Assembly: GCA_029863605.1 (NCBI GenBank) | Contig: JAOTVB010000001.1 | Coordinates: 286,187-350,186 of the forward strand | Direction: 5' to 3' | Length of the DNA: 64,000 nucleotides | Source: Myxococcales bacterium | GTDB taxonomy: Bacteria; Myxococcota_A; Polyangia; Polyangiales; Houyiibacteriaceae | Notes under the pieces: model-generated | Databases searched by the model: none | Seen by the model: only the letters and a program-made list of their open reading frames with translations | Told to the model about the DNA's origin: nothing | In this document: positions 13,068-15,124 of the stretch, piece after piece | How positions within the stretch are numbered: position 1 is the first letter of the stretch | Layout of the letters: every line of letters starts with the position of its first letter | Position numbers and translations under genes: made by a program

Positions 13068-13637
13068 GTGAGCACGCATCTCATCGCGGGCCTCGGTAAT
13101 CCCGGACCGAAGTACGCCAGCAATCGCCACAATGTCGGATTCATGGTGGCCAACGCGCTCGCGCACCGCTGGGGTGCGCCGGGCTTCCGAGATAAGTTCA
13201 AGGGCGAGTTCACCAAAGTCGGCCTGGCGGGGATGGACGTCATTCTGCTCAAGCCCATGACCTACATGAACCTGAGCGGCGAGTCCGTGCAGGCCGCGAT
13301 GCGGTTCTTCCGGGTTCCATTGGATCACGTGATGACGGTCCACGACGAGCTGGACCTTTCCTTCGGGGTGGTTCGGCTCAAGGTGGGCGGCGGCACCGCA
13401 GGCCACAATGGGCTTCGGTCGATGATGGAGCACTGCGGTGGGCCCGATTTCGATCGCTGTCGCGTGGGTATTGGACGACCCGAGCGGGGCCGGCCTGAGA
13501 GTTACGTCTTGAGTGATTTCAATGACTTCGAGAAAGCGGAGCTCGGGGACGTCCTCGAGCTCGCCGCGGACATGGTCGAAACGGCCATCCGGGAGGGCAC
13601 CCGGGCCGCCATGAACCGCTACCACGGAAGCTCCTGA
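13068..13637 (+). CDS. pth: Peptidyl-tRNA hydrolase
   Basis: Pth releases peptides from peptidyl-tRNA dropped by stalled ribosomes. The 189-residue protein shows GLGNPGPKYASNRHNVGF with catalytic His21, KPMTYMNLSGESV with the conserved Asn, HDELDL near 94 and GGTAGHNGLRS near 110. The start codon is GTG at the conserved N-terminus (STHLIAGLGN). Length is normal. It sits between rplY and rpsF, 89 bases before the rpsF start. Confidence 0.96.
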   Translation: MSTHLIAGLGNPGPKYASNRHNVGFMVANALAHRWGAPGFRDKFKGEFTKVGLAGMDVILLKPMTYMNLSGESVQAAMRFFRVPLDHVMTVHDELDLSFGVVRLKVGGGTAGHNGLRSMMEHCGGPDFDRCRVGIGRPERGRPESYVLSDFNDFEKAELGDVLELAADMVETAIREGTRAAMNRYHGSS

Positions 13638-13677
13638 CCGCTCGACTGGCGTACCCATGAAGATCGGCTATCACGCG

Positions 13678-13726
13678 TCCTCCCTCGCTCCAGCTTTGAG
13701 CTGGGGCCGTCAGACCAGGAGGATCG
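13678..13726 (+). promoter_or_regulatory. Candidate rpsF leader: hairpin pairing with the ribosome-binding site
   Basis: TCCTCC (13678-13683) is complementary to the rpsF ribosome-binding site GGAGGA (13718-13723). Inside this outer stem lies an 8-bp hairpin, CTCCAGCT (13688-13695) with AGCTGGGG (13699-13706; one G-T pair) and a TTG loop. The trinucleotide CCG (13707-13709) follows the inner stem on the 3' side. The known S6:S18-binding mRNA motif uses a CCG bulge next to a stem-loop in rpsF leaders. The layout suggests autogenous control of rpsF-rpsR-rplI by S6:S18; not demonstrated here. Confidence 0.55.
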
Positions 13727-14347
13727 ATGGCAACTGCGGCAGCAGCGCCCAAGACGCAATGGGCGCGCGAATACGAAACGATTTACATCCTTCGACCGGA
13801 TGTGGATAACGCAACGGCCGAGAAGGTGGTCGGGCGCGCACGTGATGTCGTGAAGCGACTCGGCGGCACGCTGACGAAGCTTGACAACTGGGGCAAGCGT
13901 CGGCTCGCTTACCCGATCGAGAAGAATACACGCGGGATCTTCGTCTACCTGAAGTATGTCGGGTTTGGGGACCTCGTGGCAGAACTCGAGCGCAATCTGC
14001 GTCTTCTTGACGAGGTGGTCCGCTTTCAAACGGTTCTTCTTCGCGAGGATATAGACCCGGCTACCGTCGAGGTAGACCCCGAGGAAGTGCAATACCTGCA
14101 CGTCGAGGACGAAGACGAGCCCGAGGATGCCGAGACCGAGCGTGCACGGAGCCTCGGGATGATCCCGAGGGCACCGCGGCCGGAGCGGCCGTCAGAGGCA
14201 GGGCCGGCGGTGGAGGCAGCGCCAGTGGCAGAGGCCGAGCCAGCGCCAGTCGCAGAGGCAGCGGAAGAGCCAGCAGCCGAGCCGGTTGGCGAGGGAGCTT
14301 CTAAGGGGGCCGAGGATGACGACGACAAGCCCAAAGGGGGTGGGTGA
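13727..14347 (+). CDS. rpsF: 30S ribosomal protein S6 with long acidic Ala-rich tail
   Basis: S6 binds 16S rRNA together with S18. The conserved domain is at about residues 12-115 ([38 protein letters not shown]). The 206-residue length is well above the usual 95-135 because of a tail from about residue 125 rich in Glu, Ala and Pro, ending in [11 protein letters not shown] ribosome-binding site GGAGGA lies 3 bases before the ATG, inside a possible regulatory hairpin. The stop codon overlaps the start of rpsR by one base (TGATG). Confidence 0.95.
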
Positions 14348-14649
14348 TGGCGGATGACAGAGACAGAGACAGAGACAGAGGCAGAGGCGACGAGCTCCGG
14401 CAGGATTTCGACGTCGAAGCTGGCGGCCGTCGGCGAACGGGACGCAAGCGAGCTCCCGCGTTCGCGCTCGATCCGGATTTCAGGTTTGATTACAAAGATC
14501 CCCAGCAGCTGCGGCACTTCATCACCGACCGTGGAAAGATCGTGCCCAGGCGCATTACCGGTCTGAGCGCCAAGCAGCAGCGCAATCTGACCCGTGCGAT
14601 CAAACGAGCGCGCAATATCGCGCTTCTTCCTTACACGGCGACGAAGTGA
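14347..14649 (+). CDS. rpsR: 30S ribosomal protein S18, zinc-free form, with repetitive N-terminus
   Basis: The 100-residue S18 has the conserved core from about residue 40 ([19 protein letters not shown], then [22 protein letters not shown]). The usual Cys residues of the N-terminal arm are absent, so it is the C-minus type that needs no zinc. The N-terminus is a low-complexity [12 protein letters not shown] run coded by a GAC-AGA repeat. The start is the ATG at 14347, overlapping the S6 stop; a GTG one codon earlier is possible. rplI follows after 7 bases. Confidence 0.94.
14356..14385 (+). repeat. Hexanucleotide repeat GACAGA within rpsR
   Basis: Four perfect GACAGA units (14356-14379) and one variant GGCAGA (14380-14385) encode the Asp-Arg repeat at the S18 N-terminus. 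AGA is a rare Arg codon in GC-rich genomes, and five lie within the first 14 codons of this gene. The unit is a multiple of three, so length changes would not shift the frame. Confidence 0.8.
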
Positions 14650-14656
14650 GGCAGCC

Positions 14657-15124
14657 ATGTCGTCTACCGTAGAAGTCGTGCTGAAAGAAAGCCTCGAGCA
14701 TTTGGGCTCGATCGGCGACGTGGTGCGTGTCCGGCGCGGATACGCACGCAACTACCTGCTGCCCCGGGGTCTCGCCGTCGTCGCGAGCCGCGGGAACGTA
14801 CGCCAGATCGAGCATGAAAAGGCTGTTCAGGCGCAACGGGTAGCCAAGCTCAGGGCGGACCAGGAGGCAATCGTCTCCGAGCTTGCAGAAATCACCATCA
14901 TGGTTGCCAAGGAGGCTGGCGAGGACGGCAAGCTTTTCGGCTCCGTGACGTCGAACGAGGTGATCGAGGGCCTCAAGGCCAAGGACTTGAAGATCGAGAT
15001 CGACAAGAAGAAGCTCGTGATGCCTGACCAGCCCATCAAAGAGGTCGGCAGTTACGAGGTGGGCGTGAAGTTGCCGTACGGTCTGACCGCCACGTTCCAG
15101 CTGGAAGTCAAAACCCGCGCCTGA
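14657..15124 (+). CDS. rplI: 50S ribosomal protein L9
   Basis: L9 (155 residues) binds 23S rRNA through its N-terminal domain (VEVVLKESLEHLGSIGDVV, then RRGYARNYLLPRGLA) and has a long central helix (about 40-80) and a C-terminal domain (about 82-150; KLFGSVTSNEVIEGLK). Length is close to the usual 150. Start chosen at ATG 14657 at the conserved N-terminus; the open frame upstream overlaps rpsR. It ends the ribosomal group; dnaB follows after about 90 bases. Confidence 0.96.
   Translation: MSSTVEVVLKESLEHLGSIGDVVRVRRGYARNYLLPRGLAVVASRGNVRQIEHEKAVQAQRVAKLRADQEAIVSELAEITIMVAKEAGEDGKLFGSVTSNEVIEGLKAKDLKIEIDKKKLVMPDQPIKEVGSYEVGVKLPYGLTATFQLEVKTRA

Follow-up and report, generated by a model that had tools for sequence, protein, structure and literature searches.

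The question raised by this locus is whether the leader of rpsF, which lies in a 64,000-nucleotide stretch of DNA referred to below as the window, belongs to the class of rpsF leaders that bind ribosomal proteins S6 and S18, and, if so, which of its bases hide the Shine-Dalgarno (SD) sequence and which are contacted by the proteins. The class reportedly goes back to Matelska 2013 and Fu 2014, the original motif papers, and was treated in Babina 2015. It has been reported from a wide range of bacterial phyla (PMC4647458; PMC10931766; PMC7247131). In E. coli, S6 and S18 together repress rpsF translation fourfold, and mutating two cytosines or the strand that pairs with the SD abolishes or nearly abolishes regulation; for B. 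subtilis, in vitro binding of S6:S18 to the leader has been reported (PMC4647458). We consider it very probable that the window leader is a member of this class and locks its SD with S6:S18, and we infer that binding, repression and coupling occur here. The leader has a structure that is conserved and covaries among its relatives, it is homologous to the leaders of E. coli and the Bacilli, and the effector residues of both proteins are conserved.

The rpsF locus and the fold of its leader

On the + strand, the gene for L25 is followed by the operon pth (13068-13637), rpsF, rpsR, rplI and dnaB. The leader (13678-13726) occupies part of the 89-nt gap between pth and rpsF, and 3 nt separate the end of the SD from the ATG of rpsF, with rpsR and rplI downstream; this position before rpsF is that of the class. 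The features are as follows.

13678..13683, + strand: alternative 5' strand UCCUCC, proposed by an earlier sequence-only reading; pairs with the whole SD and is thermodynamically preferred in the window
13683..13686, + strand: 5' strand of the conserved lower stem (H1), CCUC; pairs with 13719-13722
13687..13707, + strand: upper hairpin (H2), 9 bp; 13687-13695 pairs with 13699-13707, loop 13696-13698
13707..13709, + strand: CCG of the sequence-only reading; the first C closes H2 and CG opens the bulge
13708..13718, + strand: 3' bulge between H2 and H1, CGUCAGACCAG, in the conserved register; probable S6:S18 contact region
13715..13716, + strand: near-invariant CC of the bulge; aligns with the CC of the E. 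coli CCG through the Bacilli model R2 (see below)
13718..13723, + strand: SD, GGAGGA, invariant in the genus; 13719-13722 form the 3' strand of H1 in the conserved register
13727..14347, + strand: rpsF, ribosomal protein S6, ATG at 13727 (TIGR00166, E = 4.7e-18)
14347..14649, + strand: rpsR, ribosomal protein S18 (TIGR00165, E = 2.1e-25)
14657..15124, + strand: rplI, ribosomal protein L9 (TIGR00158, E = 1.4e-38)

The stop codon of rpsF overlaps the start codon of rpsR in TGATG (14345-14349), an arrangement that would couple the translation of S18 to that of S6 and through which rpsR could be repressed. S6 carries a long, acidic, A/E/P-rich C-terminal extension (14050-14347) and is 206 aa long, compared with 131 in E. 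coli, and the N-terminal RDRDRDR of S18 (14356-14387) is encoded by a GACAGA tandem repeat.

Upstream of the leader, the block AGATCGGCTAT at 13661-13671 is nearly invariant within the genus, and several members of the family have a GCTA-containing block at a comparable distance from the stem. Judged by its sequence, this block may be a -10 promoter element; transcription would then begin around 13677-13680, where H1 has its 5' edge. A sigma-70 scan did not flag the block, and no intrinsic terminator (a G+C-rich stem with a T run) was found in 13560-13800; scanning gave no support to a promoter or a terminator as the explanation of the leader.

The minimum-energy fold of 13672-13730 had an energy of -26.3 kcal/mol (z = -2.2), and 6 of 200 shuffled sequences folded equally well. 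It contains the pairing of TCCTCC (13678-13683) with GGAGGA (13718-13723) that the sequence-only reading had pointed out, at exactly these coordinates. The hairpin that the same reading had placed at 13688-13706 is also present, with 9 pairs rather than the claimed 8, because G13687-C13707 closes it; accordingly, the CCG said to follow the hairpin directly is indeed found at 13707-13709, but its first C is paired inside the stem. H1 stacks directly on H2, and the architecture of the bulge matches that of the E. coli structure in RF02893 and of the Bacilli leaders. In leaders shuffled with the SD kept, TCCTCC occurred upstream by chance in 465 of 5000 cases, and TCCTCC together with an enclosed hairpin of at least 8 bp in 33 of 5000. 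Given these frequencies, the pairing by itself is only mildly unusual, and it is conservation, rather than the pairing, that convinces.

The predicted free RNA also bears on a simpler explanation, namely that the hairpin hides the SD without any protein and slows rpsF translation, either constantly or depending on temperature, with no need of S6:S18. The SD is mostly paired in this RNA (unpaired probability mostly < 0.2, with one base at up to 0.42, varying with the assumed 5' end), and the 6-bp register is stable in this species; both points favour such a brake. The conserved parts of the leader, described below, speak against it.

Conservation of the two stems and the register of the lower stem

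We searched 57 related genomes for S6, found it in 55, and extracted the leaders. All 18 same-genus leaders contain CCUCGCUCC(A/G)GC, a short loop and a hairpin 3' strand ending in GGGGCC, followed a few bases 3' of the hairpin by GACC(A/G)GGAGGA. Seventeen leaders from the rest of the order, with the genus of the window itself left out, served to build a covariance model, R1. R1 matched the window at 13677-13726 with E = 1.9e-8 (its E-values are rough, owing to a shortened calibration), and had no other match in the genome of 4.2 Mb. Over 114 genomes of the order, R1 had exactly one match in 63, and in the 40 one-match genomes with a known S6 position, the match was just upstream of rpsF in every case. 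About half of the sampled genomes of the order (e.g., L221, L181 and L055) had no R1 match; L221 and L181 seem to have diverged forms, and L055 shows none that is convincing. It is possible that the leader was lost or replaced in genomes of this kind.

Compensatory changes in H2 were found in the genus, the order and the phylum. Within the genus, double changes occurred in H2 only; the SD does not change there, which is why H1 shows no covariation and the genus alone is uninformative for this stem. H1 was assessed with anchors taken from H2 and the CC only, and 398 pairs formed, whereas none of 1000 shuffles gave more than 378; this figure is to be used as a guide only because the shuffles ignore relatedness and some anchors are wrong. 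Among the full stems, the fifth H1 pair was U-A in 18, A-U in 7, C-G in 2 and G-U in 1, and the variants of H1 included UCCUC/GAGGA, CUCCCU/AGGGAG and AACCUC/GAGGUU. One of the covariation alignments includes six leaders from outside the order that were chosen for fitting. Judged from these alignments, the leader has the class feature of an SD-containing H1 with an H2, both stems covarying across 164 related rpsF leaders. The sequence-only reading had made its proposal depend on covariation among relatives, and both stems covary, H1 not within the genus.

The same leaders distinguish two registers of H1. The CCUC/GAGG register (13683-13686 with 13719-13722) is complete in 18 of 18 same-genus leaders, and it is the one picked by RNAalifold, by R1 and by R2, a covariance model built from 20 Bacilli leaders only. 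The six-pair UCCUCC/GGAGGA register, in contrast, is complete in 2 of 18, so that the lower stem of the sequence-only reading is not the conserved one. In the window, the six-pair register is the more stable (-21.9 vs. -18.4 kcal/mol for the conserved register), and the protein-free fold may therefore differ from the binding fold. Predicted folds across the genus use either register, and both hide the SD.

The doubled pyrimidine tract UCCUCCCUC and its two registers may be specific to this lineage. One could further suppose that UCCUCCCUC offers two mutually exclusive registers for the SD, a stable protein-free one and a weaker, conserved one that is competent for binding, and that S6:S18 shifts the RNA from one to the other. 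We regard such a slip switch as unlikely, and we know of none described for other rpsF leaders.

The bulge cytosines and the effector proteins

A scan by geometry alone covered the 164 rpsF leaders from the rest of the phylum, the genus being left out. It asked for two adjoining stems, H1 and H2, each with 5 pairs or more, and for a bulge of 7-15 bases, with no constraint on sequence, and it kept 64 leaders. With the bulge numbered from H1, 59 of the 64 had C at position -4, 58 had C at -3 and 60 had a purine at -2. The window equivalents are C13715, C13716 and A13717, the last being A or G in relatives. A related scan that required CC returned the known E. coli and Bacilli structures. The window leader has the class feature of a conserved CC(G) in the bulge between the hairpin and the lower stem, at 13715-13716. 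A sub-type seen in five Myxococcota leaders (L057, L058, L068, L078 and L266), with H1 CCUCCGC/GUGGAGG and a C-rich 3' side of H2, is unlike the form of the order, yet keeps the CC-purine end of the bulge.

These results place the probable contact trinucleotide elsewhere than the sequence-only reading had done. That reading took CCG 13707-13709 for the CCG of the class, whereas the E. coli CCG aligns at C13715-C13716-A13717, next to the lower stem. Its exact version, in which H1 is UCCUCC/GGAGGA and the proteins touch 13707-13709, agrees with the minimum-energy register of the window and with a CCG at the base of H2 that is conserved in the Bacilli too. Against it, the six pairs have the narrow distribution in the genus given above, where CCUC/GAGG is general, C13707 is paired, and the CCG at the base of H2 occurs in 15 of the 64 structure-selected Myxococcota leaders and is CUG in E. 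coli; within the genus, the CC of 13707-13709 is kept and the G is A in two members. We consider this version highly unlikely.

Alignment with the E. coli proteins showed that K60, R61 and R63, as well as Y23 and K24, of E. coli S18 are conserved in the window S18, and that R44, Y48, P49 and R85 of E. coli S6 are conserved in the window S6. K60, R61 and R63 of E. coli S18 contact the RNA, and the residues of the S6-S18 interface are likewise found in the window proteins (residues as named in PMC4647458). The effector residues of S18 and S6 that mark the class are thus retained. A protein-free brake has no use for an invariant CC-purine at a distance of two bases from H1 or for a fixed junction of H1 and H2, and Myxococcota, Bacilli and E. 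coli all keep both; the conserved contact residues of S18 and S6 likewise argue against it; we consider such a brake very improbable.

As far as can be read from its sequence, the window leader has every feature that the E. coli mechanism requires. In the S6:S18-dependent mechanism, the CC-purine-N end of the bulge would resemble the S18 site of 16S rRNA, as is held for the class. Whenever S6:S18 outnumbers rRNA, the dimer would bind the bulge, with S18 contacting C13715-C13716, and the bound dimer would stabilize H1, hiding GGAGGA and blocking the initiation of rpsF. Expression of rpsR would fall with that of rpsF by coupling through TGATG, and that of rplI would probably drop too. The cytosines and the stem register are now fixed as targets for an experimental test.

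Comparison with known S6:S18 leaders

The sequence-only reading had named a search with the published S6:S18 leader model (RF02893) as a check. RF02893 gave no match to the window leader, either at the gathering threshold or at E up to 10, and no other Rfam family fitted the leader at these settings. The 14 control genomes included 10 with S6; RF02893 matched E. coli only and missed nine S6 carriers, including B. subtilis, whose leader reportedly binds S6:S18, and the missing match therefore limits the model and not the class. The model is too narrow to count against membership: leaders of Bacilli and Myxococcota with the complete architecture escape it. The family looks under-built. The present result extends a known element of ribosomal autoregulation to a lineage in which the Rfam model does not detect it.

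As a second reference, 80 Bacilli leaders were fetched, using a B. subtilis S6 query that is confirmed by its closest matches, Bacillus S6 genes with 91-99% identity; viral contigs searched for the E. coli or B. subtilis S6 as a source of reference leaders yielded none. The Bacilli leaders follow the pattern CUCCUU-GCCC..GGGC-CG....AG(U/A)CCAA-AAGGAG. The best match of R2 in the window was 13683-13722 (E = 0.016; next, E = 2.7), and R2 matched 17 of 17 other same-genus leaders, 13 of them at E ≤ 0.003. Genome-wide, the window match had E ~1 and was not significant, so R2 supports membership but does not prove it. In E. coli, the best R2 match was the true leader, with the E. coli UCCG aligned with the Bacilli (U/A)CCA. 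R1 did not recover the E. coli leader, and the bridge to E. coli therefore rests on R2 and the shared architecture.

Several unrelated leaders per ligand are known among r-leaders (PMC7247131), and this position could in principle be taken by another kind of r-leader, either a target of L9, another protein of the operon, or an S6:S18 leader with a non-homologous fold like that of Chlorobi. Bacilli-leader models, however, align the whole motif, beyond one stem, and no other family in Rfam fits, which makes this explanation extremely improbable. The Myxococcota and Bacilli models, the covariation and the conserved S18 and S6 residues agree instead with what the sequence-only reading had proposed in general terms, an rpsF leader of the S6:S18 type with its SD occluded.

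In a comparison based on the literature, the leader resembles the S6:S18 site of 16S rRNA (C719, C720) in having an unpaired CC beside a helix, a mimicry described in PMC4647458; unlike the leader, the rRNA site takes shape within a multi-helix domain after S15 binding. A pattern search for the genome's own 16S segment with the S18 site gave no match. The leader of the E. coli rpsF-priB-rpsR-rplI operon, represented by RF02893, has H1 GUUCCUU/AAGGAGC, H2 GCCUCC/GGAGGC and the bulge UGAAUAAUCCGU, and the position of its CCG was taken from this structure. Like the window leader, it lies before rpsF, has the SD in H1 and H2 stacked on H1, and has a 3' bulge ending in CC-purine-N ahead of the H1 3' strand. 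The H2 loop is 3 nt in the window and 23 nt in E. coli, the window has CCA in place of CCG, and its operon has no priB. The Firmicutes operon includes ssb (PMC10931766), which is absent from the operon in the window. The Bacillus rpsF leader has a shorter H2 (4-8 pairs in Bacilli, compared with 9 in the window) and an H1 of CUCCUU/AAGGAG rather than CCUC/GAGG. As in the window, this H1 overlaps the SD and H2 begins with an invariant G-C pair, and the Bacillus bulge, which opens with CCG and has AG(U/A)CCA close to the other end, closely resembles the GCCGUCAGACCA of the window.
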